Shown: in pieces, positions 2,342 through 62,900 of the stretch | Layout of the letters: the number at the start of each line of letters is the position of its first letter | Numbering within the stretch: position 1 is the first letter of the stretch | DNA from: Phoenix dactylifera | Lineage: Eukaryota; Streptophyta; Magnoliopsida; Arecales; Arecaceae | Reading direction: 5' to 3' | NCBI RefSeq assembly: GCF_009389715.1 | Contig: NC_052394.1 | Span: 20,462,899 to 20,526,898 of the forward strand | DNA length: 64,000 nt | Translations under genes and position numbers: made by a program | The notes under the pieces: generated by a model | Databases searched by the model: none | Seen by the model: the letters and a program-made list of their open reading frames with translations, nothing else | What the model was told of the DNA's origin: nothing

Positions 2342-3121
2342 AAATTAACCTATAGAAAGCCAGAATTTTACAATTATTCTAGGCATGCCCTGAAAAGCAT
2401 GTCTATTTGGAAGTATTTCATTATCTTTTTGATAATGAATGCCTGATGTTATATAAAAACATATCTACCAATTTTTATGAAAATGGCATGGACAACAAAT
2501 CATGCATATAAATATATATATATAGATACCTTCATATATACTTAAATATAGTAATTCTATATAGCCGTGCATTCTTGACCCGATGATGTGCCATTTGCCT
2601 ATTAAACAAAAAATCAATCAGATCTAACAAAAAAAAAATTAATATATTATAGTGCTCAAGAAAAAAAATGAAAAAGTATCCAAACTTTTAGTGATTACAA
2701 CAACCTCCTAAATATTTATAGAACATAGTTCTTGAATGAAAAACATAGTTCTATATATTTTATAAGAGCTATCTCTAGAACAATGCAAATGTAATATTTT
2801 TTCACCTAAAAAAGGGTATTCAAGTAATCTTGATGCAAGCAATTAGCTCTTTGTCAGTGTAATTTTTAATAGATTCTAACCAATCTCACAGCCTTTGTTT
2901 CCCACAACCACCCTCCAAGTGAAAATATCATATTGAAATAAACGAGCACAAGTTGCATAACAACAAAAGTAGTAATAATATCTCTCTTTTTTTAAAGAAA
3001 AGAGAATATCAAATAAATAGTTTTTTTCCAACACGGCAATAAATTATCCTCTTCCTAAACCCCTCTCTTTCTCTCTCCATCTCTTCTCCTTCGGTGGGAA
3101 GAAAGAGAGGAAGGGGCGACG

Positions 3122-3754
3122 ATGCCTCACCCCGCTCCCAGGCCCTCCCCCCTGCAGTACCGCGTCAGCGGTCGGCCGGAGGGAAGCGGCGCCGCCTCCT
3201 CCCAGCGGTGCACCTCTCACGACGTCCCGGACGCGGTGGCGCGTCACCACGAGCACTTCGTGGGCCCCCACCAATGCTGCTCGATGGTGGTGCAGACCAT
3301 CGCCGCCCCCGTCGCCACCGTCTGGTCGGTGGTCCGCCGCTTCGACCAGCCCCAGGTCTACAAGCGCTTCCTCAAGAGCTGCAACGTCCTCGACGGTGAC
3401 GGCGACGTCGGCACCCTCCGCGAGGTCCGCGTCGTCTCTGGCCTCCCGGCGGTCACCAGCCGCGAGCGCCTCGAGATCCTCGACGACGAGCGCCACGTCC
3501 TCAGCTTCCGGGTCATCGGCGGCGAGCACCGCCTCAACAACTACCGCTCCGTCACCACCCTCCACCCCGCGCCTTCGCCGCCACCCGCCGCCGCCGACCA
3601 CACGGTGGTCGTCGAGTCCTACGTTGTCGACATCCCCGACGGCAACACGAGGGACGACACGCGCGTCTTCGTCGACACCATCGTCCGTCTCAACCTCCGG
3701 TCGCTGGCCCGTACCTCCGAGAACCTGGCCAACAACGGAGGGGCACCGGCGTAA
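3122..3754 (+). CDS. PYL4/5/6-type abscisic acid receptor
   Basis: Intronless, 210 aa, a START-like (Bet v1 fold) ABA receptor of the PYR/PYL/RCAR family. In this family the ABA-bound protein inhibits clade A PP2C phosphatases in cytosol and nucleus and so releases SnRK2 kinases. Hallmarks seen: the pocket lysine in VYKRFLKSC (K81), the gate loop SGLPA at 106-110, the latch HRL at 136-138 in GEHRLNNY, and the C-terminal helix near 180-202. The HQCC motif near 50-53 and the lack of introns fit subfamily II (PYL4-6). The chosen ATG follows a CT-rich leader and gives a normal family length. The coding sequence is very GC-rich within AT-rich flanks, a known pattern for some monocot genes. No defect is seen. 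The exact member within PYL4-6 cannot be settled here. Confidence 0.95.
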   Translation: MPHPAPRPSPLQYRVSGRPEGSGAASSQRCTSHDVPDAVARHHEHFVGPHQCCSMVVQTIAAPVATVWSVVRRFDQPQVYKRFLKSCNVLDGDGDVGTLREVRVVSGLPAVTSRERLEILDDERHVLSFRVIGGEHRLNNYRSVTTLHPAPSPPPAAADHTVVVESYVVDIPDGNTRDDTRVFVDTIVRLNLRSLARTSENLANNGGAPA

Positions 3755-21530: not shown

Positions 21531-24500
21531 CTAAGCCCATTTAGCAAGAAGAGACATTAAGCCTGCTCCTATAAGCAATGAGACATTTATCGCAAATTGT
21601 AGCTTTCCCTTGCTCTGTACCCTTGGGTTCATAAAATCTTCAGCTAGAAGGTCAACAAGAGCCATGTAGATCAAAATTCCTGCGGCTACTGAATTGAGAA
21701 TGCCTTCGACAATTAAAGCAGTAGGACTGTTCTCATTGTAAACAGATGATATTCCAAAACCTATTGCTATTCCAACAGGAGTGGTGAGCGAGAAGAAGAG
21801 TATCATCGTTGCCACTGACATGGTTTTAAATTTTGCCTGCAATATAAAATAGTTCAGTATTATTGGTAAAAGGTAAAAGTTGGATGGTAATACAGGATAC
21901 CACAAGTAGCACTAACTAATTTTTTTGTTTTTTGATAGGCTCTTGAATAAAATCATGGCATAAACTAAAGCTCCAATGGAGAAATTTTCTTGACGCATTA
22001 CATAATCAAATGAAAAACAAACCTTTAGCAAAGGCATGGTAGCTTTAGACAATTTTCAGTGCTCTAAAAAGCTTAGAAACATATAGGGAAGGAGCAAGAA
22101 TAAATTTTTTAACTAAGGTGCAGAATCTAACATGCGAGGTCATTGCAACTAAGCTTTTTAATATTTCATCTATCACATTGAATTTGAGTAAAAGAAGAAA
22201 AATGAAAAGCATGGGTGCAAATCTAGGGACCACAATATTCGGCCTTTATTTAATGGTGAAAACCTTTATGCCACTTGCTTTATATGAATGTATGATATAA
22301 CATAACAAATTTGTGCCAAATTTTATTCCTCTCCAAATTAAAGGGCAATATCAGCAGGCATCCCAACCTCTTGTTTTAGTAAATCAATAAAATATATAAT
22401 GTTACAACCAATATCAATTACCATATGACCTATCAAATTTGCTTTTTTTTGTTTGGGGGGGGGGGGGGGGGGGGGGGGTTAAAATTCCATGTTCCAATGT
22501 TATTTTCCAAGAATTTGACTTAGATAACATTTGAATGAAATTGTTGATGTTATCCCGTCATCATTCTTCAAAATAAAAAGAAAACGTAATACTACAGCAA
22601 ATAGGAGCATGACCTCCAAAAGCTATTATAAAACTACTAATAGTCATCAAGATTAGTTACTAGGCTAATTAGTTACCTTGCAAAAGCTTTGGGCATTGCA
22701 AGTTGGTTGAAATCCCCAATACTATCTTCCAATGTTAGATAATAATATTTTAATAATTCAACAACTATAACTGGCAAACTTAGACATGGTCATAATGAGA
22801 GCCAAATAGCATTACTTGGAACAAGTCCAATCAACTCAACTAGCAGGCTACTGAGCATATCCTCAGTTACTAAAGCTTTACACTTCTTTAAAGCAAACTA
22901 GGAGGGATCTACTATACATGTTATTGATTAATAAAATGGGATCAATTAGACCTAATCTAGATAAGAATTTGAATAACTGTGGTCTACTTAATATAGTATT
23001 AATCTCTATATTTTAAATAATAATTATTGGCCTGAAATTTGCTTGAAAAAATAATTTGTTAGATTTGAATCCAAATAAATCATACCTGAGCAATACATCC
23101 CCCAAGCCCCATGCCCTCGAAGAACTGATGAAAGCTCAAAGCAGCTACCAGGGGCCTTATGGTAGAGGGACTATCTGATGCACCAAGAGATATCCCAATT
23201 ATCACCGAATGGACCACGATGCCCAACTCCAGTACCTACACCACATGCATCCAATCCTTGCAAGTTACCTTACCGCGACAATAGAAAATCTTTCTTAAAA
23301 AGTATTACTTTTTGCAATTGAATCTCAAAGGCAATACAATTTTATAGTTTCAACAAATTCAGTAAAAAAGATTATAAAAAAAATTGGTCTAGGAAACAGT
23401 TGATTTAACTTTATAAGAGTATATTTCCATATATTTTATTATTTTTTGAGGATGATGCAGGAAATCTAGATGGACCATAATTTACAGTCCACCTGGCTTC
23501 TCCCCCACAATTTATCAGAACACACACACATATATATATATTTTAGCTAAAAAATATTTATGTATATATATACATATATATGTACATATATAGATTGATA
23601 TATGTATGTCTATATGTATAGGTACATATAGAGATAGATATAAGTACATATATGTATATGTACATATATAGATAGATATATGTACATATATGTATATATT
23701 ATGTGTGTATAAAATATGAGATAATAATAATAATAATAATAATAAAATTATATAAAAACTAAATATATATAAAAATATATGATTAGTATAAAAAATATAA
23801 TTTAAAAAATTCAAAATTGAACTGTATTGATTCTAATATAATTGTCAAAGCTGACGGCATTTCCAATCCCACTTTCAACTTACTAAAAAATATCAGCTGT
23901 CAGACAAAACTGGCAACCTTTTTAAACCACAAAAAAAGAGAACCGCATCACGATCCTCCATTCTAGGCGTAGCGTGCAAAAAAAAAGGAGTTTTTACGTA
24001 ATATAAAAAATAACTAGAAAGATAAAAAAAAAATTAGAGTCTGTTCTGAATATTTTATATTAGGTCAATACAACCAACAAAATTATAAAATTATAGGTTA
24101 AATTAAATTTATATGTATAAATATTTAAAAATAATTTTGGATTGGGCGGTTATGATTTTCCGCTAGTTAATGCGCGGAAAACGCACCTGGGAGATGACGC
24201 GATGGCGCACGAGCTTATCGGAGCCATCGACGGCGGGGCCATGAGCATGCCCGTGGGTGGCGTGGACGTGGATCACAGCATCTCCCGCGGGGCGATTCAT
24301 CTCCGCATCCCCTTTGTTAGCCTCATCGTTCACCGCCCTCGCCGACCGGCTAAAATAGCTCGTCGCCAGAGTATCCACCATCAGCGTCCCGAGGGCACCA
24401 ATCATGGCACCGAATCCGGCGAACGGAAACTTCCCCCATGGGTCGTCACTGAGGCACGGGGAGGTCAGGTTTTCGAAAGCGTCCGGAAGTATGTGGATGA

Positions 24501-24774
24501 AGCCCGTGGCGAGTATGACGCCGGCGGCGAAGGCTTTGATCACGAAAAAGATATCGTTCTCCGGACTGAGAGCGGGGATGGATTTGCTCAAGATCGGGAG
24601 GCAGACGCCGATGGCGCCGCAGATGAGGATGGAGAAGAAGGCGGCGATTTTGAGCGGCCGGGCTTTGGATTTGTTGCGGCCCTCGTCATCGGGGGAGCAC
24701 TCGCAGTCTCCGGCGACGGCGAAAAGCGGCAAGAGGAGGAGGGAGAGGAAGAAGAGAAGGGCTAGGGGTCTCAT
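21531..24774 (-). CDS. ZIP zinc/iron transporter, first of a tandem pair
   Basis: Three exons on the minus strand: 24774-24187 (196 codons), 23235-23086 (50 codons) and 21836-21531 (101 codons plus stop), all GT-AG and phase 0, giving 347 aa, normal for plant ZIP proteins. Order: signal peptide about 1-22, a short Cys/acid stretch (DCECS), three membrane helices, a variable loop with the His-rich metal site around H169-H178, then TM4 with HSVIIG (H205) and TM5 with HQFFEG (H232, E236), the conserved transport-site residues, and three further helices. ZIP proteins import Zn, Fe or Mn across plasma or vacuolar membranes; sequence alone does not give the metal. The paralogue at 33450-35163 has the same exon lengths in exons 2 and 3. 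Intron 2 carries a run of 24 G at 22455-22478. A TATAAAAG box lies 75 bp upstream of the ATG. Confidence 0.95.
22455..22478. repeat. poly(G) run of 24 in ZIP intron 2
   Basis: Twenty-four consecutive G on the plus strand, so C in the ZIP transcript. Such runs are prone to sequencing length error. Confidence 0.9.
23521..23745. repeat. TATA/TACA/TAGA-rich microsatellite region in ZIP intron 1
   Basis: Interrupted ATATAC, ATAGAT and TAA units within intron 1 of the first ZIP gene. It ends with (TAA)8-type repeats near 23721-23745. Confidence 0.85.
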
Positions 24775-24848: not shown

Positions 24849-24856
24849 CTTTTATA
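24849..24856 (-). promoter_or_regulatory. TATA box of first ZIP gene
   Basis: The minus strand reads CTATAAAAGACC, a canonical plant TATA box 75 bp upstream of the ATG at 24774. No RTGTCGACAY zinc element is seen between here and the LTR element at 25172. Confidence 0.7.
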
Positions 24857-25171
24857 GGAGAGAGAGGTTCGAAATTATTATTTGGAAATATCGCTGGGAT
24901 GAGCACATTTTAGTGGTTCGGGCCGGGGGGACGTGCGGAAGCGTTGAAACTATGAGCTGTGTGGTGCTGATTTTTCGGCGAGACTGATATGGTACTACAT
25001 CAGGTTTTAATCTACACCCTCTCCGTGTCTTTCCATGATAATTTGCTGCAAAAGGGCTAGGTCGACTTTGGATTTGGCAAAGTCGAATTATATTTTTGGG
25101 TTTTGAATTTTGATAGGTACATATTATCTTGCTTTATTATAATACAGTTTTTAATAATATTTATCTAGATG

Positions 25172-25705
25172 TGTTGCCCCTAAATTCTAAATCGAGGTCG
25201 GAGTGCTACTTTGTTTGCTCAGAAATCGGAGAGAATCGAATTGAATGAGATGATCGAGGTGAGGAAGAACTGGTCGCCTTCGAGGATGATCTACAAAAAG
25301 TCCACTTGCCGAAATATTTCCGGCAGAGAGCCCTACGATATCTAAGTCAGAATGGTAGTGCAGCAGTGCTGAAAGAAGAAATTTTATAGAATAGAGTCTT
25401 CGAATGAACTTATGTAAGGACCTCCAGGCCACCTTTTTATATAGGGTATCACACCAATCCATTATTTGATTTGGCGCCATGTGGTCTAGATACTGGTCAG
25501 CTACACGTTTACAACGTAAAAATAGTCCCGCATGAGCAGCATGCATCGATAATTATGTCGATCGTGCGTAAACTACAATGTTGCCATAATTGCCGGTCTA
25601 TATTAATACGAGTGGAGTGGCTTCTTGATTTTTACCGAAGTTGTTCACCTTAGCTAATACTGAAGCTAAAGAGATCGATTTAATCCGAGGACGAGATGTC
25701 CAACA
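25172..25705 (-). repeat. 3' LTR of the deleted element (534 bp)
   Basis: A TG...CA bounded LTR. It contains a leftward TATATAAA-like box near 25437-25444 and is aligned over its full length with the LTR at 26534-27071. Confidence 0.85.
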
Positions 25706-26533
25706 TTTCTCCCATCACTTGCCTCCCACTTTTGAGGTTGAACTGTAAGATCCATGGATGTTCAGTAGTCTTCTTTTTTTTTGAGAGTTCGGAAGGATAT
25801 ACATCGAGAATGGTACATTCTACCAGAAAGTCTATCAACAATTGCACTTTGATTGATGGTCGAGACTAATACTCAAGGTCGAACTTTTTGAACCTAACCA
25901 TCCACTTTGCCAGCCGACCTACATTTTTAAGTTTTTATAAAATTTGCTTCATTGATTGTTTGGTTAGGATTGTGACTGAATAAAACTAAAAGTATGGCCG
26001 GAGCTTCCGAGCTGAGATAATGATGGCATAGACCATCTTTTTTAACTTGGAATACCATGTCTCAGCAACTCGCAGAATCCGACTTGTATATTAGATTGCT
26101 TTCTGACATCTTTCTTCTTCTCGTACCAAGACTAAGCTTACAGCAGAAGGAGAAACAACTAAGTATAAATAAAGCATTTCTCCTACCTATGGCTTTGTAA
26201 GCAGAGGTGATGAGCTGAGATATTCCTTCAGTTGGTCAAAGGCCACTTGACAATCCTCGGTCCACTGAAAATTCTTTAGATGCTTCAAACCTCACTCCAC
26301 CGATTTGGACACAAATTTTTCAAGTCCTACGATTTGACCAACTAGGCATCGAACTTCTTTGACAATCTTTGGTGGCTATGTTTTCTATACTGCTCGGATT
26401 TTCTCCGAATTTATCTTGATGTCTCATTGTGTTACCATGAATCCCGAATTTTTTTTGAGGACCCCAAAAGCGCACTTATTGATTTCTCTCTTCATTTGGT
26501 GTCGATATAGCTGCTCTTCCTCTAGTACCAATC

Positions 26534-27071
26534 TGTTACTGCTAAATTCTGAACCGAGGTCAGAGTGCTGCTCGGTTTGCTCTGAGGTCGGAGAGAATCG
26601 AATTGAATGAGTTGACCGAGGTAAGAAAGAATCGATTGCCTTCGAGGATGTTTTGCAAGAAATCCACTTGCCAAAAAATTCTAAATGAGGATCCTCCAAT
26701 ACCTAAGTCAGAATAGTAGGGCAAGAGTGCAGAAGAGAAAAATTTTGTAGAGTAGTGTCTCCGAATGAGCTTACTTGGGAACTCCAGGGCCACCTCTTTA
26801 TATAGGATAGCATACCAATCCGTTATCTGATTGATGCGACGTGCTTTAATTGCAAGACAACAATCAGTGGCACGTTTATAATGTGGAAACCGTCCCACGT
26901 GAACAGTATGCGCAATAATTACGCTAATCGTGCGTTAACTGCAGTATTTCCATAGCTATTGGTCTTTATTAGTACGAGTGGAGTGGCTCCTCGATTTTTA
27001 TTGAAGTTATTCACCTCGATTAATACCGAAGCTAAGGAGATCAGTCAAATCTAAGGTTGAGATGTCCAACA
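26534..27071 (-). repeat. 5' LTR of the deleted element (538 bp)
   Basis: Partner of the LTR at 25172-25705, with the same ends and the same order of shared strings, including a TATATAAAG-like box near 26800. Confidence 0.85.
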
Positions 27072-27307
27072 TTTTTTCATCATGATAAATTTTGTCTAGG
27101 TTTAGCTTGACCTCAATATGATTCTAATTAATTTCAGGTACGTGAGTGAGACATGCAACCAAAATATCGCTTGCTGTATTTACATTTAAGAGAGTCTCAT
27201 TTAAAAGATATTTGATCGAGTAAAATTGCATTCGAATCCAGTTTTATGAAATCCATAGCTTACCTAATTGAAAATCATGTATCAATTCGGTCCGTTTATA
27301 TGCAGAT

Positions 27308-27640
27308 AGGCTCAGTAGGAATCACGTGCATGGCAATGTTAATTTTCTAGATGGAAGAGTGGAGAGGGGGGAAAAAAAAAAGAGGCTCAGAAGGAATCAC
27401 GCGTATGGCAATGTTAATTTCGCTAGATGGAAGGGTGGAGGGAGAATGTTAATTTCTATAGATGGAAGGGTGGTGAGGGAATCACGCGCATGGCAATGTC
27501 AATTTCTCTAGATGGAAGGGTGGAGAGGGGGGAAAAAAAAAAGAGGCTCAGTTGGAATCACGCTCATGGCAATGTTAATTTTCCTAGATGGAAGGGCGGA
27601 CGGGGAAAATAGAAAAAAAAAAAAAAAGGAGAGTGGTTAT
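27308..27640. repeat. short tandem repeat, about 75-bp unit
   Basis: Units begin GGCTCAG, then GGAATCACG, ATGGCAATGTTAATTT, AGATGGAAGGGTGGAG and an A-rich tail. Three full units and one partial unit are seen. A related single unit occurs at about 30022-30085. The open frames over it are artefacts of the repeat. Confidence 0.8.
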
Positions 27641-28300
27641 AGGAGGTCTAAAATTTCTGAACTAATCGTGGAAGTCGGTATAGAATTCCTAAGTTTAAGA
27701 GTGTCGACATAATGTCGCCACGAAAACCGTGGCTCGCTAATGACGCCGATCGCATAGGCCGGCCCCGAGGGAACGCTGTGTTTCTTTTTCGAGTCGAGAC
27801 GCCACTTTAAGCATTACCTGGACTCCGAACTCGACCCAAAAGGTGCGCATAAAATGGGTTCCAAGTGAAGGAAATTATCCAGTAAAAAACGGTGGGTCAC
27901 GTTTGCAACTAGACTGAGTTCCGGTGGAATAGCGAACTCGAAAGGAAAAGGTCAGTGCCGAGCCCCACGTAATACGTGGGCTTTTTTTCAACCTCATCTT
28001 GCGTTCAGAAAGCAGAGAATTTTGTTTCTATCACTGAGTTCAGACAATGATGAAGTCTTTTGATAACATTCCCAAAGATATTCTCGTTCAACGAATCCGA
28101 ACAGGAGTGGCAGGAGGGGCCCAGAAAGAAACGAAGCTCCTCCCTTCTTTAAAATGGTGTGAAGGGGGAGATAAAAGGTAACCTGGTCAAAGTCGTCTGG
28201 TGGAATCAACGCATCTGCCAACTTGGATGGTTTCGGCTGCACACTTGAAACGTTGATCTTAAACAAACTCATCGTCCATCTACGAGCAGTCTTCATGGGA
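27500..28300. repeat. duplicated intergenic segment, copy A
   Basis: Three blocks here recur in the same order further right: about 27.5-27.65 with 30.02-30.10, 27.84-27.95 with 30.64-30.76, and 28.02-28.25 with 31.94-32.25 kb. Shared strings include TTATCCAGTAAAA and TCCCTTCTTT. The 100-codon minus-strand frame at 27994-28296 lies in the third block and has no known domain. Confidence 0.6.
27701..27721. promoter_or_regulatory. paired zinc-deficiency response elements, distal to first ZIP gene
   Basis: GTGTCGACAT at 27701-27710 matches RTGTCGACAY exactly. After 1 nt, ATGTCGCCAC at 27712-27721 matches with one change. RTGTCGACAY is the element bound by Arabidopsis bZIP19/bZIP23 in promoters of zinc-deficiency-induced ZIP genes. 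The pair is about 2.9 kb upstream of the first ZIP ATG, or about 1 kb if the LTR element at 25172-27071 is discounted. The same pair with the same spacing is found at 35405-35425. Function is inferred. Confidence 0.6.
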
Positions 28301-28635
28301 TGGCGATAACATTATCATTGATTTGTTTGAAAATATAAAAAGATATTCCATACTTATGATTTCTTTGGTTATTTTATTGCGTGTGCATATGTCTAAACTC
28401 TAGAGGGTATGATTTCGTATAGGAATAAGCATAACGGAGTCTTCCATCTTACGTAGTTTTCTCCTCGGTACAATTAAGCACTGGTTTAAATGGGCAGGGA
28501 ATGTCAACGTGAGAGTGTGAACGCCGCGTGAGAGCCATGCGACCCACGCGGTGGAGGTCATCACATCACGTCAGACTCTTACAGCACAATGCTGCCGCAG
28601 TTTGGTAGGTGCAAGCGACCGGATCGTAGTTGTAT

Positions 28636-28721
28636 CCTTCGCGCCCATCGACCGTTGGATCATTGGCTGATCGCTTTGAGAGCTGTGCAACGGGTGATCC
28701 AACGGTGGAAGGGCGCGAAGG
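28636..28721. repeat. foldback: 29-nt imperfect inverted repeat
   Basis: Arms 28636-28664 and 28693-28721 share CCTTCGCGCCC and ACCGTTGGATCA on opposite strands with a few mismatches and a 28-nt loop. The surroundings (28500-28960) are unusually GC-rich for the spacer and include a run of 14 C at 28754-28767. It could be the core of a small foldback element. Confidence 0.65.
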
Positions 28722-29087
28722 AAGGTGAATCCTTCTTTCGCGCGAGGGATGCACCCCCCCCCCCCCCTTGGCGTTTTGAGTGTTGGAAGTTTCGTACAGA
28801 CCCAGAAAGAGTGGTGCCGAGCGAAAGAGGTGACAGCCGAGGATCATATGGATGGTTCGTGGTCCGGGTTCCCTTCAATGGCTTCCTGTCCCTCGCTTTA
28901 CGTCAAAAGGAGATGCTCTTCGCGGTGGGTACGGTACTGCGAGAATTTTTTATATAGTTAAACATATGAAATTTTTCAAGGTAATCCGATTGGTGTAATG
29001 GATCCAATGGGCCACAAACTGCCACTGCCAAAATATTACCTCGCATCTATTTAAGTATGGCGGGGCACCTTCCATCCAATCATGACT

Positions 29088-29541
29088 AGGGATGCAAATG
29101 AGCCGAGCAATCTGCAAGCTGGAGGAGCTCTATTCTGCTATTACCACACTCCAGTTGAGCTCGAATAGTTTGAACAATTTTTCAAATTTAGCTCGAATAG
29201 CAAAATATTCGACCCGATAACACACAAGCTGGATCAAAAAAATTTATTTTTAATAATATTCTATTCTATTCTATTATTTTAATATTTTTTTTAAAAAAAT
29301 ACTATATTATATTTTATTATATTTTGATTAGGGTTTGAATTTGAGTCCGGACTCGGGCTCAATTAATTGTATCTCGGTTGATATTTTTGTCAAACCCGAG
29401 TATTACTTTTTTTTTATTGAGTTGAATTTAATCTTAGACACCAAAGTTTGATTGTTCTTGAATTAAATTTCGAGTTCAAATATTTGGAATCGAGTCGAGC
29501 TCAAACTTCTAGCTACTCGGCTCGATTCGGCTCAATTGTAA
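29088..29541. mobile_element. degenerate hAT-like MITE fragment
   Basis: It starts TAGGGATGCAAATGAGCCGAG and ends in CTCGGCTCGATTCGGCTCA, the GAGCCGAGC-type ends common in plant non-autonomous hAT elements. The right terminus lacks the expected TGCATCCCTA, so the element is truncated or decayed. Confidence 0.4.
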
Positions 29542-30021
29542 CATTAATCACAACTATCATCCAAATCAGAAACGCCTATGATTGGACATCCGTCCCTCTA
29601 AAATGGAATTGGAGAAGATCACACCGAGGCACGCCGAAAATAACAGCCATTAGATGGTGGGGACCGACCGAAGGCTGGTTGGAGGAAAACTTCCGTTGCT
29701 CTATTCAATATTTTAGAACATTGGAATCCCTAGGTAGGGTCCCAAAGGCTAACCTTTTGACCACCAACAGCCACTTTGATTAAAATCGAACTTAAGATTT
29801 TTCTATTTTTAAATTAATTTCAACTTATTCTGATTAGGTGTTTTTAAATGAAAAATCACCCAGCCGTTCAACTTTCTGATTCTTCCAGGGAAGTCCTTGG
29901 TCTCAAAGATTATGTAATGATTCTGACTTCAGCAATAAACTAAATGATCATAGCTTCTGTGTTGTGTTTAATTCACACAAAGCTATTATTTTAGAAAAGA
30001 AATCATTTGCACGAGGCCAAG

Positions 30022-31983
30022 GAGGACTCACTTGAATGACAATATTAATTTCTCTGCATGAAAGGGTGGAGAAAAAAAAAAAAAAGCAGAGTAGTTATAG
30101 GATGTATAAACATCCTGATTAATTGCTGAATCTGTTGAGGAATAATAATCTCATTTAGGATAGATTAAGGACTTTTTGTGGTGTTTATAGCCTTTTGAGA
30201 TCATTCATCTAAATACACAGATTTTTAATTAGGATCTTAACATGGTATATCAAAATCCACGGATTCTTCTTACCTACTAAAACCTCCACATTTTCACTTA
30301 TATGTGAAAAGGAGTGCGGAATTTTAGATAGGATCTTGATAAAATCTCTTGGGATGTTTCCTCCGTAACTTTGGTTGGGAGTTGACAGAATGGGGCCGTG
30401 CAACTGTGGGCTGTTAGGCAAGCCAACCACATCTATTGCCCTGTTCAGCACCACATTTAAAAAAAAAAAAAAAGTTGGAACTTGTGTTTTTTTTTTTTGA
30501 ATCCTGGTTCTTTGTAATATTTTATTTTCTGATTATGTTGAACGGATTCATACTAAATATTTATGATCCATCCATCTTACAAAAAAAAAAAAAAAAAAAA
30601 ATCCTGGCTCCGCTCAAACATTACTTGCACTTAGTACTCCATCCAAAAGTGCACCCAAAATGGGTCCCGAGCAATCGAAGTTATCCAGTAAAAGGTGGCT
30701 CATGTTGGGAGCTAGATCGAATTCCGGGGAAAAAATTGGACTCAAACAGAAAAGATTTCAGGGCAATTAAAAGCTGCTCATGTATAACTAATCAAAGGAC
30801 CGAAAATAGGCTAAAATTATTGTACAAAGTGGATGGAAAACTACTAATCTGGTTTTGAGTGGGTCTCAACACCAAATTGTTTTTGGGCTGTAACTAAAAA
30901 AGTTGTTCTGGTGGCTAAACATAATATGTACAGCGGGAGTTTCCTTATATCCATGCCTAAAGCTCCAGTAGAATTGAATCCTTGTTAACTATTTGATTAT
31001 TGGGAGCTTGAAGCTTGCACCTCATGCGTGCTTATCTTGATGCACTTTTTAAGCTTGCAATGCAGGAGAAACAAAAGTTCTTATTTTTGTTGAATGTGAA
31101 TGCGATACCGAAATTTTGAGATTCATGCACGAACATATTGAGAGTTAGAGCAAGATCTGTGTCAGTTTAGCATGAAGGATATTTTTCTTTTAATTCATCA
31201 TGAATGATTTTTTCCTTTTCTTTCCATCTCCAAGCAAAAACTCTGTGTTTCAACTCCTTAGCACTCTTAAATGGCACCATTGATTTTTTTTTTTTTTTGA
31301 TTGAATGGGATGCTGTGCCACTTTTTGTTTTATTAAATAAGAATTGTGTACATATTGGATTGCTTCATCAGCGATATGATGTTGGCCAAGAGATGATGTA
31401 AGGATCTAGGTGAGAATTAGAAAAGAACAAATCCCCAACCCTTACAAAAAACCCACCGAAGACACAAGTTTGTGGATTTGTGACGTCAATTATCTCATAT
31501 TTCCCAAGTAACGTGCTTTGTTCTATTTTCTTCTGCACATTATGAAAGCCATGCACGTAGGCTTTCATTTGCTACTTCTGTAACAGTATTGCAAATATCC
31601 ACGATCGATTCTTTTGTTTCGCTCTTTGTTCTATATTTTCTTTTCTTTACCTTTTATTCTTGCTCTCCATGTGTTCCACCGTACTTCCATGATACCGTTC
31701 TTCCCCGTTATTCCTAGTCAATGCTCCTATCTTTACCACCTAAATTTCTGATACACATCTAAAACGCTAAAGCGTCAGCATGGGAGCAGTGCTCGTTTAG
31801 TTATCCAAATTCCAAAGTGAAGGCCAGTGAGGAGCTCCACCAAGTCGGCTCGTTTAAAAGCTCATCTGCTGGTTAGAGAACAGAGATTTTTTTTTATTAT
31901 AATCATTATTTTACTTTTCTTTTGAATGAAGTTAAAGATCGGATAATGACGAAGTCTTTTTTTAACATTGTCAAGGTTTCATC

Positions 31984-32026
<43 letters not shown>

Positions 32027-32280
32027 ACTGCCAAAGAATCTCCCGTGGACTGGACGAATCAGAACGAAAGAGTTGGCAGGACCGGAAGAAATGAATCCCT
32101 TCTTTGAAGGTGATCTGAAAGGGGAAATAAAAGTTAAAAAGGGTATGGAGATATATATATATAGCACAAGGCGACCGCTGCTCTGAAGTCGTTTGGTGGA
32201 AACGGCACGAACACGTCTCCTCCCCCTCATCTATAGGCTATAGCACGCAGAACGCACCCAAGCACCCTCCACCAACTTGG
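30022..32280. repeat. duplicated intergenic segment, copy B, expanded
   Basis: Collinear with 27.5-28.3 kb but interrupted by about 1.2 kb between 30.77 and 31.93 kb and by poly(A) runs near 30579-30600 and 31987-32025. The paired zinc elements of copy A have no counterpart here. No gene is recognised. Confidence 0.55.
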
Positions 32281-33353
32281 TTGCTTAGCCTATACAATAT
32301 AAAAGTTGTCCTTTGAAAAAAGAGAAAAATCTGTGGTCTATCTATTAGTAGTTTTGGAAAGAGAAAATTAAGATCTGCCCCCGGAATTGGCTGCGGTTTT
32401 GCATTTGATCTTCTTCCACTGAACTAACAGCTATTTTTGGGTGTCTTCCTCGCCTTCTCTCATTTTTTTTTATAAACTTCTTCCCTGATCATTTCATTTC
32501 CTGCATGAAATGGTGAGAACATTGGCATCCTTTTATCGAAACAGTCAACTATATAAATATAAATATGATATATTTATTTATCGGATTGGATCGAGTTAAA
32601 TTAGGTTAGATTGATTTAGGTTGGCTGTGGATTGGGTCAAGGACCAACTCAACCCACACTTTGTTGAAGGCCAAGTTGGAAATTTGAGCCTAAGCCTCTA
32701 ATTTATTAAATCCTTAGCCCAGTCCTGTCTAATGATCGAGCGAGTTGGTCAGGCAGGTTTAGATCGAGCCTAATCCAAATTGCACCTACATATAACAAAA
32801 TTATCAATGAAAATTTACAACAAAGTTTTCTGGTTGAAATAAAAATATAATAGTCTTAAATGTCCTCCTATATAAGAAGAAAAAATATTTCCTCGTAAAG
32901 AAAAGAAAAAAGAAAAACCAAAACCAACTACAAACATTTTATAAATTCATCTGAGGACTCGAAATGAACATTTTATGAATAAACATTGTATTAATTCTGG
33001 CTGATCTTCTAGTTAAAGTGGAGAGATGAAAAAATCTGATATCTTTCTATCGCCTTTCTTTCTTTTAGCCATTTGATGTGGAATTTCTGTTTCCATTACT
33101 TTGGCTTCCGACAGCGCTTATAAGCATCATCTCAGTTTAATTTCTAGCGACGCTACTAAAAAGTGTGGGCAAATTTCGGCGCAGTGACTAAATTATTGAT
33201 GATTCTTTTTAGCATTGGCAGGTTACAGACGATGAAATTTTTTCCTTTTTGTAGTGAACAAAAATAAAAAAAACAAAACCAACCACAAGGAGCCCATTTT
33301 AATATTTCCACAAAGTCTTAAAAAGACATTCTTGCACCTACGCATGCATATAC

Positions 33354-33410
<57 letters not shown>

Positions 33411-33449
33411 TTTATGAATTTCAAGTTGCCCTATCTATGGTCCATCCTT
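32281..33449. other. spacer downstream of second ZIP gene
   Basis: No gene is recognised. A stretch at 32570-32790 has GGATTGGATCGAGTT-type low-complexity sequence typical of decayed non-autonomous elements. A (GA)n run lies at 33356-33406, about 45 bp beyond the ZIP stop codon and so probably in its 3' UTR. Confidence 0.5.
33356..33406. repeat. (GA)n microsatellite
   Basis: A pure GA dinucleotide run of about 50 bp, just past the stop codon of the second ZIP gene. Confidence 0.95.
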
Positions 33450-35163
33450 TTAAGCCCATCTACCAAGGAGAGACATTAAACCAGCTCCGACGAGCAAAGA
33501 GACATTTATCACAAGTTGTAACCTCCAATTGCTCTGCACCCTTGGGTTCCTAAAATCTTCAGCAAGGAGATCAACAAGAGACATATAGATTAGAATCCCT
33601 GCAGCGGCAGAATCGAGAACCCCTTCAACGGTGAGCGCGGTTGGACTGTTCTCATCGTACGTGGATGATATTCCGATGCCCACTGCTATCCCAACGGGAG
33701 TTGTGAGGGCGAAGAAAAGCATCATCGTCACCATGGACCTAACTCTAAAATTTGCCTGCAATAGAGAGATGACATACCAATTGATGATAGATAAGGGACT
33801 CTAGAAGTAAACTCCTACGTAGTTTTGATTGCATTATTTATTATAGGAAATATCATAGTAGCTGTATTGCATCATCTGCTATATGAAATTGACTGCATGC
33901 ATTATTCTTCTGATCAGTTCATTGGTCTCTTGAATATCTGCATTTATATTTGGATGATGAAAATATTCGTTTTATTTCTTTTTTCTTTTTTTTTTTTGCC
34001 TGCCTGTTTGTAACTCAGAGGTGGTGCAATTTAATGAATGAAGGAGGGAACTGAGCTTGGATATCTGGTACAACCACAAGAAACTTTTACTAGGCGCAGG
34101 CTCTCTAGTACGATCTCATGAACTCAAACACTCTACATATATATATATATATTCCATATATTAATGAAACATAACTCTCACTAATTTCTTTTCAAAGATA
34201 AGCTAATTCAGTTGAATCTGAAATAAACATACCTGAACAATACATCCACCGAGGCCAATGCCCTCAAAGAACTGATGAAAGCATAAAGCAGCCAGAAGTG
34301 GCCTTATGCTAGATGGACTCTCTGATGTACCCAAAGTTATTCCTATTATCACCGAATGGACAACAATGCCCAACTCCAAAACCTGCATCATATCCATCCA
34401 ATCCTCAACCATATATAGTTCCACCTTGTTGAAATCTTAAGAGGGAAAATTACATTAAAATCTGAACTAAGTTATCTCGCTCACACACAAAAAAAAAAAA
34501 AACACAGAGAGAAAACTCAAATTTTTCACGAATTATATTAGAAGATAAACTCACCTGCGAGATGATGCGATGGCGCAAGGCTTCATCCGGGCCGTCATCC
34601 ACCACCAAGGCGGCCGGACCATGCTCATGACCATGCATGGCGTGGACGCGGGCAGCTCCTTGCTCCGCGTCCCCTATCCCCTCATCGCTCACCCCACTAT
34701 CTGGCTTCCAAATGCTCGACCGACTGAAATAGCCCGTTGCCACAGCATCCACCATCAGCGTCCCGATGGCCGAGACCATCGCTATGAACCCCGCGAAGGG
34801 GAATTCCTGCCATGGATGCTCGTTGAGGCACGGGGAGGTCAAGCGCTCGAAGGACTCAGGGAGGATGTGAATAAATGCAGTGGCAAGGATGACTCCTGCG
34901 GCGAAGGCCTTGATCACGAAGAAGACGTCCTTCTCTGGGCTGAGAGACGGCACCCACTTGCCTGATATTGGTATAAGGACTCCGGCGGTGCTGGAGACCA
35001 GAATGGCGAAGATGGCGCCGATCTTCAGCGGTCTGGCCGCAGCCTTGTCCCGGTTTTCATCCTCAGAGGCGGAGCACTCGCAGTCTCCGCCCCGGGCAAG
35101 GACGGGGAGGAGGAGAAGAGTTAGGAGAAGGAGAAGGAGGGGAAGAGCACTCGTTTTGGTCAT
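33450..35163 (-). CDS. ZIP zinc/iron transporter, second of a tandem pair
   Basis: Three exons on the minus strand: 35163-34555 (203 codons), 34382-34233 (50 codons) and 33755-33450 (101 codons plus stop), all GT-AG, phase 0, giving 354 aa. Layout matches the paralogue at 21531-24774: signal peptide about 1-25, DCECS, membrane helices, a His-rich loop with H174, H177, H179 and H181, TM4 with HSVIIG (H212), TM5 with HQFFEG (H239, E243), and three C-terminal helices. The two proteins share most of their helices and differ chiefly in the signal peptide and the His loop, so they are close duplicates. Its introns (172 and 477 bp) are much shorter than those of the paralogue. A TATA box and paired zinc elements lie 220-260 bp upstream, which suggests induction by zinc shortage. 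Confidence 0.95.
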
Positions 35164-35380
35164 CGGAAGGGAAGACGAGTTTGGCGGGGGATTAGAATAG
35201 GGACTGAGACGATGTGGGGAGGACGGGAGTAACTACGCTAATAGTAGGGTAGGAGGGTTGAGTTCGAGTTTGGAGCTTGGAGAGTTTAGGAGGGTGGGAA
35301 TAGCAGAGCTTGGAGGGGAGGAATAGTTTTCAACTCTTTATGTAGGAAGTCAATGCCTCGATGGTGGCGTCGTCTCGGTG

Positions 35381-35387
35381 TTTTATA
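35381..35387 (-). promoter_or_regulatory. TATA box of second ZIP gene
   Basis: The minus strand reads CATATAAAACACC, about 220 bp upstream of the ATG at 35163 and immediately downstream of the paired zinc elements. Confidence 0.6.
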
Positions 35388-35404
35388 TGCCAAGGAATGG
35401 AAGG

Positions 35405-35425
35405 GTGTCGAAACAATGTCGACAC
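35405..35425. promoter_or_regulatory. paired zinc-deficiency response elements, proximal to second ZIP gene
   Basis: ATGTCGACAC at 35416-35425 matches RTGTCGACAY exactly. Separated by 1 nt, GTGTCGAAAC at 35405-35414 matches with one change. The pair lies 18 bp upstream of the TATA box in the direction of transcription. The element is the known binding site of group F bZIP factors (bZIP19/23) in plant ZIP promoters. The position is that of a functional proximal site; function itself is inferred. Confidence 0.75.
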
Positions 35426-35429
35426 CGGC

Positions 35430-38400
35430 GACGGAGGCCGCACACCAAAGGAATCGCATTGGCTGGCCGCGGGGTGTCGAGCAGGGATAAGTCTTGGAAT
35501 AAACTTTATGCCCACCAAATGGATTTGTTTTCAAAAAGGGAGTAAGGAAATAGTTATTCTTCCGATTAAACCACCCTACTTCCGAAATAACATCCTCTCA
35601 TTTTTGTAAGAAAAATAAAAACTTCGATCTAGCATATATCTCGGAAAATCTACTCTTACCTTTCAATTAAATACGTTTCATTTATCTTTAATAATAAACC
35701 TACGCACAGCGTGTAATGTGAACAACGCCAAAGATTCATTGTGAGTTAGATGCAGGGTCTTCTTTGGAAAAAAAAAAAAAAAAGGCTTATACGGCCCATG
35801 CCATGCCTCAACAAGCATGTAGGTTTATCTCTTCTTCGTTCACATCTATCTTATATGGCCTATATGAGCATATGTCTAGCCCTACATCGATTTTATATTT
35901 GATAGAATTTGAGTACTCATACTATACTAAAAAATCTAAATAATATCTTGCAATTAATTTTTTGGATGAGATCTTAAATTGTTACAAATGATATGAAACC
36001 TAGCCCTCGTAGATTGACCACAACTTGACTATGATATTTATGATTGAATTTATGGTGCTTATAAATAGATTTGGATCCTTAGTTTGGTGAGAATGTTTGA
36101 GCTTGAAAGGAGAGGACGTGAGGACTCTTAACTTGGTGAAGATGCCGAAACTTAAAATAAAGGAGAAAACTTGTGGAGACTTGTGTTTAATACCATTCAG
36201 CTAGTTTTTTTTAAAAGAAATAAGGGCTTGTGTTTGTTATGATTAGTATTTTTTTATAATAATTCTAAAAAATCTAAATAATATTTTTCTGATCAAAACA
36301 ATAATTAAATTAATAGTGGCTTCAAACTTTAATTGCAAATTAATTCCAAGGCCGTTTTGTTTCAGGGTCCACGGTCCCACCCGGGTGCACGGACATCTAG
36401 TCAGCCCTTTGGAAGGCTCTCAATCATGCCTAAGCTCAAAAAAAAAAACAAGCACCCTCATGGGGATCCGGAAGTGACGAACTTTATGCGCCCACCTTTG
36501 CCTTTAGGACACAGACGTGTGCTCGAAAGGGGTGCCGACCCCACAAATATCTACAGGTGGAGGGGAGATTAGAACGACTTTTGAGGTTCAACCACTGGGA
36601 AGCATATCATATGCGAAGGATTCGGTCCCATTTTGAATAAAGGAGCTAAGGTTTCCATAGAGATGATGCCCCGTAACAGTGCTCCTCTTTATTACAACAA
36701 AAATTATGACTTTATCCATTTGATTTAAATCTAAATTAGTTTTTTGATTTATAGATCATTGGATAATTATTTAAGAAAAGTCTATTTGGCTCTTACATCA
36801 TAGCGTATATGGTGAATTTGCAAAAAGTTTTAGTCAGCTAACACATTATTGTCACTCGTTCAAAGAATAGTTTGTCAAACATAGAGCAGAAAGCTGCACT
36901 GCTGAGTTTTGAAAAAAAAAAATAAAAAAAAATCATGCTCTAAATTTGCTATCAATGTGAAAGTGCTTTAGAGGATGAGTCAAATATATAAGCAAATTGG
37001 TTTGGACATAGACTTGCAAAAAGAAACATGAAATATCCTCATCGGAATTAAATTAAACACGGATAGAGGAAATATGGTTCAATTAGAAATGAATTAGTAT
37101 TATAAATGAACAAAAATCAACTGAAAAAACAGTTCATAAATTTTAAAAGCAAAGGAGACTTAGATTAAAGATTGAATTTTCAAAGGATGAATGGTGCTCG
37201 ATTAGCAAAAGGAGTCATACATATAAGGTATAAAATTATACAGATATCTATATATAATTGAATATTACAATTAAATTGGTTGCTGTTTGTCATCATATCA
37301 TCACCAAAATACTGTATCTTTCAGCATCGGGTAGGTTAGACTTGGAACACAACAACTGATATAGCACATATGTTTTAATAATCATTATACTAATCTAAGT
37401 CAAAACATAATTTGTATGAAAGCTAGTATGCGGAATCCAGGATTATAATAACTTGTCTCATATTTTTTAGTCAAAGAAAAAAAAGAAAAGTTATTAGGGT
37501 TTTAGGCTCCATGTACTGCTTTCAATTCTAGCCCTCATCCTAAAATCGACCATCTTATAACGGATTTCCCCTTCTATTATGTCCTGACCGCACAGCATGG
37601 CCTTGGATTCACGGCAAAACAGCTAATAAGATATGATCAAACGGTGCGCTGTTTGGAACAAAACAATAGATCCCCTTGCCCGCGTCTAGGACGACTTTGA
37701 GTCTAAGAAGAATCCTTCTCTCCTTCCAAAATTTTTCCTTGCAGCAAAGAAGAAAGAAAGGAAAGGGTTATATGATCTCCATCATTTAAGAGTCAGAGAG
37801 AGAAGAGACCAAATGAATCGGATGATGAACAAGATGGGACTATACTCTTTCCATCAATCATTGCAGCAAAGCTTCTCTTGCTCTCTTTTTTAACAAATTA
37901 TTTTTTGTTTTTTTTTAGATAAGAATTGAAATCGGACAATAATGTTATGAGATTGTGCATAAAAGATGGTTAAAAAATTGAAAACATGTGATCCAGTCAA
38001 GCAATAATTTGGCATTTGGGAGTGATATGGCTCGGAATGAACATCTAAAATTCAGAAAAAAATGATGCAAAAAGAAAACTCATCAAAAGTGCAAAAGAAA
38101 TATGGAAAAGAAAATGAAAAAAGTAAGGTTATATAACATAATGGTGCATTTTGTTCATGTAAAAGCAAACATGAAGCAGTGGAACAAGTGATAAGCATTG
38201 GTGAAAAACACTTGAGGCAACAATTCCAATTAAGTCCTTAAATTGTAATCCATCAGTTTTTCCTAAAAAGCTTTGAATAACTTGCAGAGTAGTTCTTGAT
38301 CTATCTGACCACTCAAGAATAATTGGTAGAATCGCTTGGTCATTCAAGAATTTATTACTATAGCTCTAGCTGAATACCTAATTTTGGGTTATAGTGGAAA

Positions 38401-44326: not shown

Positions 44327-45315
44327 TCAAAAATTAAAAAAGGGTAGAGAAACATGTCTATGTCTAAGAGACTCTATCTTGAAAGGCTCTTGAACTACAC
44401 TTCCAGATGAAAAGTTCATGAATTGGGGTATGGAATTAATGCTATTGTGCAAAAGGAAAGACTTGCCATCAGCGTGCATCTGTTGATAAGCCATGGAAGA
44501 CTCTTGCTGCATCTGAATGCATAAAATCTCTGCCTGAGCCATTGCAAGCTGCATCTGTAGCTGAGACACTTGGTTTTGGAGGAATGATATCGCCCCCACG
44601 CAGCCATAAACCGGGTCTCTCATCCTCGCATTTGCCTCAAAAACTAGACTACTCACAGCATCAGCTCTCTGATAAACAGGAATCTCCTATACCAGGAAAG
44701 AATAAGAGAAAAAAAAAAAAAAGCATTAAGCCCCCGCATCTGAAAAACTATATTAGCAGAAGCATTAAGCACTGCAAGGACAATGCATCATTAGCAACTC
44801 ATTTTAGTCTGAGAAACAAAAGACAACTGATCATGATTTGTTTGTGAAGTCTTTTGATAAATACAATTCAGATTCTTTTTCTCCACCCTTGGTGGATTTT
44901 CCAAGGCTACTTTCATACCCTCAATAAAAGTTTGTTAGGCTTTCAGGCCTAGTTTCCTCAGAAAGATAAAAAGAAAGTAATTCATTGGAGAGAGCTAATC
45001 ATCCTACCATCATCTTAGCATGATCAACTACATTTGCAATCATGCATGGACAGAGATGCCACTTCAAATATTGAATTTTATTCTCTTCTGCATCCATATG
45101 CTAAATAGAGGCAATTTTTTCGATGTAAAAAACAACGCAATTTAGAGAGAGAGAGAGACCTGCAACATCTTGCTGACATTGCTTGCACCGAAGACCTTGT
45201 GAACAATGGCAAACTTGTGGGGATCATCAGAAGGGAAGTAGGGGGCAAAGATGCAGTCCTTGGCACACCGTCTCCGTAACCATTTGCAAGAAGCGCAAGG
45301 CGAACCGGCGACCAT
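44327..45315 (-). CDS. LOB-domain (LBD) class I transcription factor, LBD4/LBD12-like
   Basis: Two exons on the minus strand, 45315-45160 (52 codons) and 44686-44327 (119 codons plus stop), joined GT-AG in phase 0, giving 171 aa. The LOB domain is complete: the C-x2-C-x6-C-x3-C block at about 7-21 (CASCKWLRRRCAKDC), the GAS block with FGASNVSKMLQ at about 42-52, DPVYGCVG, and the class I leucine-zipper-like L-x6-L-x3-L-x6 repeat. QVSQLQMQLAMAQAEILCIQ is very close to what I recall of the LBD4/LBD12 group. Members are nuclear DNA-binding factors acting at organ boundaries and in vascular development; the specific role here is inference. The intron after LQ is at the conserved LBD position. The ATG at 45315 is the first in frame and gives the short N-terminus usual for the family. 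Confidence 0.93.
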
Positions 45316-59953: not shown

Positions 59954-62900
59954 CTACTGGTAATACATCCGCAGGTTAGCGGAATTCCAGCTCCTTGGAA
60001 TTTCTCGACCATCTAGGGCCTCCAACTGGTAGGAGCCAGGTCGGTTTACCCAGCGAACCCTATACGGGCCTTCCCAATTTGGCGCTAGCTTCCCACCTTC
60101 CGCAGGTTGAGATGCTTTAGCTCGTCTTAGCACCAGATCTCCGATTCTGAAAAGCTTCGGTCGGACCTTGGAGTTGTAATATCGGGCCACCCTCCGCTGA
60201 TACATCGCCATCCGAACCTGCGCCATTTCCCTCGCTTCTTCCAAGAGATCCAGGTTCCCTCGGAGTTGCTCCGAATTGGCCTCGGGTCGGTGCGCGGCCA
60301 CCCGAGGTGAGGGGAGTCCGAGCTCCACGGGGACAACGGCTTCCGTGCCATAGGTTAGGCTGAAAGGCGTCTCCCCGGTAGGGGTCCGTTGCGTGGTCCG
60401 ATACGCCCAAAGGACATTCTCGAGTTCTTCGACCCAAGCTTGCCCCGTCCGACCGATTCGCGCTTTGATTCCTTGGAGGATTGTCCGATTTGTGACCTCG
60501 GCCTCGCCGTTGGTTTGGGGATGCGACACAGATGTGAACCGATGCTCGATCCCGAACTCCTCGCAGAAGTCACGGAAATGCTTGTTGTCGAACTGTCGGC
60601 CATTATCCGAGATGAGGACCCGAGGTACCCCAAATCGGACAATGATGTTCTTCTTCACGAACTTCCGGACTTGCGCCTCCGTGATAGTGGCCAGCGGCTC
60701 TGCCTCCACCCACTTGGTGAAGTAGTCGATTGCAACAATCAAAAATTTTCGCTGAGCTGAAGCGACGGGGAATGGTCCGAGGATATCCATTCCCCACTGG
60801 GCGAAGGGCCAGGGTGCAGTGATTGGTGCCAAGGGGACAGAAGGGACTCTCTGGACGTTGGCGTGGCGCTGGCAGGCGTCGCATTTCCGTACATGATCCT
60901 TTGAGTCCTCCAACAAGGTAGGCCAATAATAGCCTTGCCTCATGATCTTGTGCGCCAAGGACCTAGCCCCCAGGTGTGATCCGCAAACGCCTTCGTGGAC
61001 TTCGCCGAGGACGTAGGCCGCTTCCGAGGGGCGGAGGCACTTTAAGAGAGGGGCGGTGAACGAGGTCCGATACAGCCTCCCTTCATAGAGTACGTAGTGG
61101 GCGGACTTCATAACAAGTCGCCGAGCTTGATCTTCGTCTTCAGGGAGGATCCCTTCGACGAGGTAGGTGACAAGCGGGTCCATCCAAGACGGCTCCGGAT
61201 CAATCGCCATCACCGCTCCAGCCTTGCCGATGCTCGGGGCATCCAGGGTCTCCAGGTAGATCGCCCTCGACAAGTTGTGCGCGTCTGCGCCCACTAAGCG
61301 GGACAACCTGTCGGCCCTGGCATTTTCACTTCTTGGGACCTGCTGGATGTCGACACTGCCGAGGTCGGGAATGAGTGCTTGCACCTTCCGGACGTAATTC
61401 TGCATGGTCGGGTTCCGGGCTTCGAACTCCCCACGGACCTGCCCGACCACCAGCTGGGAGTCGGTGAAGACCTTCAGGCGCCGGATGCCGAGCTCCTTGG
61501 TGAGTTTGAGTCCCGTGACTAGGGCCTCGTACTCCGCCTCGTTGTTGGTCACTGGAAATCCAAACCTCAAGGCATACTCGGCTATCACTCCATCAGGACT
61601 GGTAAGGACCAGCCCGGCCCCTCCACCTTCGGGGTTCGACGACCCATCGATGTGAAGCGTCCAAATCGGGAGGTCGAGGCTGGGTGTTTCCGGCGACCTA
61701 GGTTCCGCCTCCTGCACCGTGCACTCAGCGAGGAAATCCGCGAGCGCCTGGGCCTTGATGGCGGGTCGGGGCTGGTAGCGGATGTCGAACTCACCAAGTT
61801 CTACTGCCCACTTCACCAGCCGTCCCGCATTCTCAGGATTGCTGAGGATCTGCCGCAGCGGTTGATCGGTCAAGAGGGTGACAGAATGGGCCTGGAAATA
61901 GGGGCGAAGCCTCCTGGTCGCGGTCAGCAGCGCGAAGGCGATCTTTTCAGCCTTCGTATACCGCGTCTCAGCATCCCGTAGGACCCGGCTGATGTAGTAC
62001 ACAGGCTTCTGGAGCTTTGCCTCTTCCTGAACCAGTACCGCACTGACTGCGGTTGGGGAGACCGCCAGATAGAGGTAGAGCATCTCCCCTTCTTGCGGCT
62101 TGGACAGCAGGGGAGGAGACGCCAAGTATTCCTTGAGCTGGTCGAATGCTGCTTGACATTCGGCCGTCCAGAGGAAGTCTTTCGGGCGTTTCAACACCTT
62201 GAAGAAAGGTTGGCAGCGTTCGGCCGATTTTGCCACAAATCGTCCGAGCGCGGCGACCCTCCCAGCGAGCTCCTGAACCTCCTTCACTTTGGTCGGAGGG
62301 GACATATCTTGGATGGCCTTGATTTTGTCCGGATTGGCTTCGATCCCCCGCTGCTTGACAATGAAACCGAGGAACCTCCCGGCCGAAGCGCCAAAGGCGC
62401 ACTTCGCTGGGTTCAGCTTCATGTGAAACTTCCGCAAGGTGGCGAAAGTCTCCTCCAGATCCGCGATGTGCTGGTCTGCATGGCGGCTGTTCACCAGCAT
62501 ATCGTCCACGTACACCTCCATGTTCCGGTCGATTTGTTCTTTGAAGATTTTGTTGACGAGGCGCTGGTAAGTGGCGCCAGCATTCTTCAGACCGAAGGGC
62601 ATTACCTTGTAACAGTACAGCCCCCGGTCTGTTATAAAGGCAGTTTTCTCCTCGTCCTGTGGAGCCATCATTATCTGGTTGTAGCCGGAGAAGGCGTCCA
62701 TGAAAGACAGCAGCTGATATCCGGAAGTCGCGTCGACCAGTTGGTCTATCCGCGGAAGCGGAAAGCTATCCTTGGGGCATGCCTTGTTCAGGTCGGTGTA
62801 GTCGACGCACATCCTCCACTTTCCGCTCGCCTTTCGGACAAGTACGACATTTGCCAGCCATTCGGGGTAGCTGACCTCCCTTATGAATCCTGCCTCCAAG

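Follow-up and report, generated by a model that had tools for sequence, protein, structure and literature searches.

The window analysed here, a stretch of 64,000 nucleotides of the Phoenix dactylifera genome (C3:20462899-20526898, within a searched genome of 773 Mb in 2391 contigs), contains two tandem genes of the ZIP family of zinc transporters, each preceded by a pair of 10-bp palindromes separated by a single base. This raises the question of whether the two pairs are zinc-deficiency response elements (ZDREs), how the paired arrangement arose, and whether it still acts on both genes. An earlier note on the sequence had proposed that the pairs descend from one promoter with two perfect ZDREs, which was duplicated with the gene and then decayed in opposite members. 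In our view, both pairs are most likely ZDREs in a 10+1+10 dyad layout, which some of the ZIP genes would have inherited as a promoter module from an ancestor, with the dyad of the second gene (ZIP-B) active and the response of the first (ZIP-A) weaker or dependent on looping. We give this interpretation a probability of about 0.8, on the basis of the sequence itself, its recurrence at other ZIP genes, the relative age of the duplication and the presence of genes for F-group bZIP (F-bZIP) proteins. The features concerned are the following, the two TATA elements having been recognised by eye:

27701..27721, minus strand: putative ZDRE dyad of ZIP-A, gene strand GTGGCGACAT T ATGTCGACAC, 2927 bases 5' of the ATG
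35405..35425, minus strand: putative ZDRE dyad of ZIP-B, gene strand GTGTCGACAT T GTTTCGACAC, 242 bases 5' of the ATG
21531..24774, minus strand: ZIP-A gene, exons 24774-24187, 23235-23086 and 21836-21531; 347 aa; TIGR00820
33450..35163, minus strand: ZIP-B gene, exons 35163-34555, 34382-34233 and 33755-33450; 354 aa; TIGR00820
27749..27759, minus strand: companion element GCCTATGCGAT, 27 bases upstream of dyad A
35453..35463, minus strand: companion element GCCAATGCGAT, 27 bases upstream of dyad B
24850..24856, minus strand: TATA box TATAAAA of ZIP-A, 76 bases 5' of the ATG
35381..35389, minus strand: TATA-like box CATATAAAA of ZIP-B, 15 bases downstream of dyad B

On re-reading the window, the positions and letters first given for the two 21-base pairs proved correct, the plus strand being GTGTCGACAT A ATGTCGCCAC at 27701-27721 and GTGTCGAAAC A ATGTCGACAC at 35405-35425. 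Each pair consists, as had been claimed, of one perfect RTGTCGACAY and one copy with a single change, the perfect copy occupying opposite positions in the two, and both pairs agree with the 10-bp ZDRE consensus, for which one mismatch is accepted. The window holds 12 matches to RTGTCGACAY at up to one mismatch, against 3.13 expected, a number reached by none of 100 shuffles. The pairs are not chance matches, and the observation is real. The locus is also a duplicated ZIP locus, as proposed: the two tandem minus-strand genes score 454.8 (ZIP-A) and 440.8 bits (ZIP-B) with TIGR00820, the 'ZIP zinc/iron transport family', for which the cut-off is 231.15.

The same layout recurs at other ZIP genes of this genome. 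We considered 18 ZIP loci (16 fetched from elsewhere in the genome, plus A and B), some of which are possibly assembly copies; the family search scored 120 of 177 candidates and may have missed ZIP genes. At the 16 other loci, among pairs of sites 0-40 bases apart, four pairs have a spacing of one base and the other 40 spacings together account for eight. In dinucleotide shuffles of these loci the one-base spacing occurred on average 0.055 times (maximum 2), and in none of 200 shuffles did it reach four, so that the specificity of the spacing is that of ZIP loci against their shuffles in a single plant genome. The four additional dyads are GTGCCGACGT T ATGTCAACAC at a paralog of ZIP-A on contig C12, where both copies are off consensus, ATGTCGACAT C CTGACGACAC at a ZIP gene on C8, ATGTCGACAT C CTTACAACAC at one on C9, and ATGACAACAT C CTGTCAACAC at a second C12 gene. 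Together with A and B, the six ZIP dyads form two sequence types at bases 11-12, namely T[A/G] and CC. With the dyad present at the C12 paralog and at three more distant ZIP genes, both the ZDRE identity of the sites and the suggestion that a paired site, already ancestral, passed through the gene duplication are well supported.

Another ZIP gene on C8 (locus L044, C8:22740900-22749500) carries GTGTCGACAT and ATGACGACAT 33 bases apart, with no recognisable second copy one base after the first, though its relatives L043 and L037 carry the dyad. Several ZIP matches come in pairs with equal or similar scores (C3:31679 and C3:873937; C1:5107419 and C1:5249750; C6:16657067 and C1009:36199), and these may reflect recent duplications or two haplotypes retained in the assembly.

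The whole genome was searched with the pattern RTGTCGACAYNRTGTCGACAY, which combines the known consensus with the 1-nt spacing and nothing else. At up to three mismatches it was found at 86 places, about half of which were listed, and the reversed pattern at 66. Only three places in the 773 Mb are within one mismatch of the 10+1+10 pattern, A, B and C9:10488921, where between 0.15 and 0.4 would be expected by chance, as estimated from the 1521 perfect single sites genome-wide. Three of the seven places within two mismatches are at ZIP genes (A, B and C8:22752988, upstream of a ZIP gene), and the place upstream of the ZIP-A paralog, C12:5363336, has three mismatches. Of the 84 places besides A and B, at least two lie within the other ZIP loci (129 kb), against 0.014 expected. 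A second pattern, modelled on the sites found, gave 15 places at up to two mismatches, five of them at ZIP genes, a count that is partly circular; at three mismatches its totals of 139 and 138 showed no excess over the reversed control (157 and 158). Pairs of perfect RTGWCGACAY sites 0-30 nt apart were confined, in the whole genome, to four places (five rows), and no ZIP locus is among them; the perfect pair of the C8 gene in L044 has the wider spacing of 33 nt. NAS genes were also considered as carriers of the dyad and discarded, since the NAS loci C13:7043204 and C3:8640785 are not near any place among the matches listed, in a comparison that covered about half of the 86 places and 100 of the 277 rows of the second pattern.

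F-bZIPs are reported to activate ZIP genes through ZDREs at low zinc (PMC9643250, PMC7307843, PMC5656842). ZDRE binding is described for the proteins of Arabidopsis, wheat and rice, and those of barley partly rescue the Arabidopsis mutant (PMC7307843, PMC5476651 and PMC5656842 among the sources). Predicted F-group zinc sensors are encoded in the genome studied here: a search with a zinc-sensor motif query gave seven matches, with five loci at E < 1e-6, and each of the four frames read at these five loci has the Cys/His motif and, after it in one frame, a bZIP-type basic region. All three frames that were scanned exceeded the curated cut-off of Pfam bZIP_2. Two of the sensor genes, L053 and L054 (C2:4330305 and C2:4342926), are near-identical and lie about 12.6 kb apart.

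At low cellular zinc, these sensors, zinc-free at their Cys/His motif, would activate ZIP transcription through the dyad. The 1-nt spacer places the centres of the two copies 11 bases apart, approximately one helical turn, so that two dimers would sit side by side on the same face of the DNA. We infer that the dimers may touch or cooperate there, and likewise that both genes would be bound and respond to zinc. Dyad B, at 242 bases from the ZIP-B ATG, is well inside the 2-kb promoter region in which ZDREs of ZIP and NAS genes are placed, and directly upstream of the TATA-like box; it should be fully active, and this region is likely a working promoter. In the case of ZIP-A, the dyad would have been moved 2.8 kb away from the core promoter by an old long terminal repeat (LTR) retrotransposon and a minisatellite, and owing to this separation the zinc response of ZIP-A is probably weaker or dependent on looping.

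It is improbable that the palindromes are read, instead of or besides F-bZIPs, by another factor recognising TGTC/GACA, such as a NAC repressor of the OsNAC15 kind or an auxin response factor (ARF). TGTC half-sites also suit ARFs. In rice, OsNAC15 is described as binding ZDRE-containing OsZIP7 and OsZIP10 probes, but as failing to bind the ZDRE-carrying OsZIP5 and OsZIP9 promoters in yeast, and the full RTGTCGACAY consensus of the palm sites, together with their concentration at ZIP genes, fits F-bZIPs best.

The flanks of the dyads bear on their common origin. The 11-mer GCCNATGCGAT is common to A, B and the C12 paralog, at 27, 27 and 26 bases upstream of the dyad, respectively, in alignments including a three-way one with MAFFT, and within the window it is found only at 27749-27759 and 35453-35463, which shows that the flank similarity pointed out in the earlier note is real. 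We know of no motif to which this companion element corresponds. A strict local alignment of 1 kb around both pairs yielded a poly-T match only, the looser alignment and MAFFT being more informative. The strict result is what would be expected if two unrelated upstream regions resembled each other by chance, but such a coincidence is made scarcely credible by the companion element, placed equally far from both pairs, by a third paralog, where the layout is repeated, and by the 1-nt spacing of four more ZIP dyads.

The relationships between the genes bear on the relative age of the duplication. ZIP-A and the C12 gene are identical at 291 of 345 residues, with a synonymous divergence (dS) of 0.33, ZIP-A and ZIP-B at 238 of 339 (dS 0.85), and ZIP-B and the C12 gene at 234 of 343 (dS 0.86). 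In the tree, A groups with C12, followed by B and then by the second C12 gene, with the C8 and C9 genes further out (supports 0.94 to 0.96); it covers 10 of the 18 ZIP sequences, represented by exon fragments, L046, L047 and L049 (fewer than 200 columns) having been dropped and five loci being without a match. By the tree and the larger dS between A and B, the tandem duplication is older than the split between A and C12, and the tandem genes thus inherited the dyad from their common ancestor. Three of the 21 bases separate dyad A from dyad B, while 58 of 128 four-fold sites differ between the two genes (binomial p 0.003), so that constraint is apparent in this longer comparison, and not in the shorter one between A and C12.

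The DNA between dyad A and its gene includes a large insertion, absent from the earlier note. This insertion and the neighbouring repeats are:

25169..27074, minus strand: decayed LTR retrotransposon, LTRs 25169-25708 and 26531-27074, RNase H-like fragments between them
27318..27607, strand not assigned: minisatellite with 1.8 copies of a 161-bp unit, lying between the retroelement and dyad A
30013..32137, strand not assigned: partial second copy of 27382-28181 (around and upstream of dyad A), in four matching stretches

The 1.9-kb insert has two LTRs of approximately 540 bases each, which are direct repeats with 75.6% identity. Short pieces of its interior match models of the RNase H-like region in reverse transcriptases, with E values from 1e-4 to 2e-3 and no score reaching the gathering level, and a genome search with the LTR gave 41 scored matches, 39 of them beyond its own two, out of 233 first-look candidates. 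No target-site duplication was recognised by eye around it. With paired LTRs, internal reverse transcriptase/RNase H similarity and dispersed copies, this repeat-flanked insert is, by its features, a decayed LTR retrotransposon. The partial duplicate at 30013-32137 does not hold a relict dyad, its best 21-mer having six mismatches.

Several observations weigh against the interpretation of both pairs as an ancestral ZDRE module. Dyad A is upstream of ZIP-A and closest to this gene, but at 2927 bases it falls outside the 2 kb in which such elements of ZIP or NAS genes are usually sought. At the threshold used, no dyad was found at 12 of the 18 ZIP loci, and the four additional dyads are not independent, as they include two close-paralog relations (C8/C9 and A/C12). 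Of the three best places genome-wide, C9:10488921 lies in 6 kb of sequence without a recognised gene; the four of seven listed frames that were scanned there gave a single weak match, to DUF420 (E 0.008, below cut-off). The companion element GCCNATGCGAT occurs at one more of the other ZIP loci, L036, inside the ZIP match and without a dyad. Dyad A and the C12 dyad are unlike at 3 of their 21 bases, and the two genes at 42 of 154 four-fold sites (p 0.14), which does not amount to significant constraint, and all of the evidence is drawn from sequence.

Some of these points would also suit a different situation, in which dyad B alone works in a promoter, the retrotransposon has left dyad A behind as a relict, and F-bZIPs no longer control ZIP-A. 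We take this as a serious contender, at somewhat under even odds. Dyad A is 2845 bases from the ZIP-A TATA box with the LTR element between them, the dyad of the C12 paralog is likewise distant from its ATG (2134 bases) and off consensus, and the lack of significant A/C12 constraint points in the same direction. However, after a dS of 0.33 from C12, one copy of dyad A is still perfect and the other still fits TGDCGACA, a motif discussed below.

The complementary decay proposed in the earlier note stands in part. The ancestral paired site is supported, but an ancestor with two perfect ZDREs that lost one copy in each gene is not established; each of the six ZIP dyads has at least one imperfect copy. 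That such an ancestor existed, and that neutral loss of one copy per duplicate left one working site in each gene, seems to us doubtful. The opposite positions of the perfect and single-change copies in the two genes speak for it, a doubly perfect A/B ancestor was no costlier than the alternatives considered in a parsimony reconstruction by hand, and C12, the paralog of A, is off consensus in both copies. Against neutral decay stand an A-B divergence over the 21 bases below that of four-fold sites, and also the identity of the changed copies. The changed copy of A, TGGCGACA, fits TGDCGACA, the motif obtained by chromatin immunoprecipitation sequencing for the Brachypodium F-bZIP BdbZIP10 (PMC5894230), and that of B contains GTGTCGAA, an element of the LPCAT1 leader, linked with repression, which AtbZIP23 bound in electrophoretic mobility shift assays (EMSA) and AtbZIP19 hardly did (PMC5826268, PMC9643250). 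Since both changed copies fit motifs reported to be bound by F-bZIPs, these variants may be altered rather than dead sites. At C12, where both copies are off consensus, the change looks like a real loss; this dyad and the distance of dyad A from its core promoter, both absent from the earlier note, leave the two-gene symmetry incomplete.

The altered copies would take on a more specific meaning if the 1-nt dyad were a composite operator of ancient origin, with a pair of F-bZIP dimers in contact on one face of the DNA, and if the asymmetry of one consensus and one variant copy were itself functional. With a TGGCGACA-type partner in ZIP-A and a GTGTCGAA-type partner in ZIP-B, the duplicates may then answer to different F-bZIP paralogs, a proposal that we consider speculative and rather unlikely.

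Turning back to the dyad as a ZDRE module, its relationship to the known systems can be described as follows. The ZDRE (RTGTCGACAY or RTGWCGACAY), bound by the F-bZIPs AtbZIP19/23, OsbZIP48/49 and TabZIPF1, is likewise a 10-bp palindrome at ZIP genes, often present twice per promoter and commonly with one mismatch, whereas at six palm ZIP genes the copies keep a fixed phase, one base apart. Among seed plants, two ZDREs are present in most promoters of the ZIP4 group (PMC5476651). In AtZIP4 and NcZNT1 the two ZDREs are also near the TATA box, but they are 72 to 118 bp apart across the tabled species, against 1 nt here (PMC4773103). In AtZIP4, where this distance is about 118 bp, a 5' deletion past the distal ZDRE lowers the zinc-deficiency response of the reporter and one past the second abolishes it (PMC4773103). 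Tandem probes of two or three ZDRE copies, used in EMSA and yeast one-hybrid assays, bind F-bZIPs in vitro (PMC7307843, PMC5656842). Those probes are synthetic, whereas the palm dyad would be a natural counterpart. In rice, OsZIP5 and OsZIP9 are tandem neighbours. They are also described as co-acting zinc-uptake ZIP genes that carry ZDREs. We found no mention of a natural 1-nt ZDRE dyad in the parts of the ZDRE literature searched, a scope that leaves out supplementary ZDRE positions and the original 2010 paper. The element is already known, and its fixed 1-nt dyad at several ZIP genes is a variant that was not found described in that literature.

That several ZIP lineages in this genome share the one-turn phasing suggests a role for the spacing itself, and the dyad offers a compact module in which to study cooperativity, half-site preference and F-bZIP paralog specificity. 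The tandem pair, with a tight promoter in one copy and a retrotransposon between switch and TATA in the other, amounts to a natural experiment in the regulatory divergence of zinc uptake.

A third perfect RTGTCGACAY in the window, at 61347-61356, is not considered part of this system, as it sits inside a retroelement-like open frame and is taken as a chance match. The frame in question (59957-64000, minus strand) has 1348 codons, runs past the end of the window and resembles by eye a retroelement polyprotein; a perfect site in such a frame means that some of the single sites found genome-wide may derive from repeats. Elsewhere in the window, the open frame at 3059-3751 (plus strand) resembles by eye a PYL-type abscisic acid receptor, and that at 44330-44686 (minus strand) a partial LOB-domain protein.

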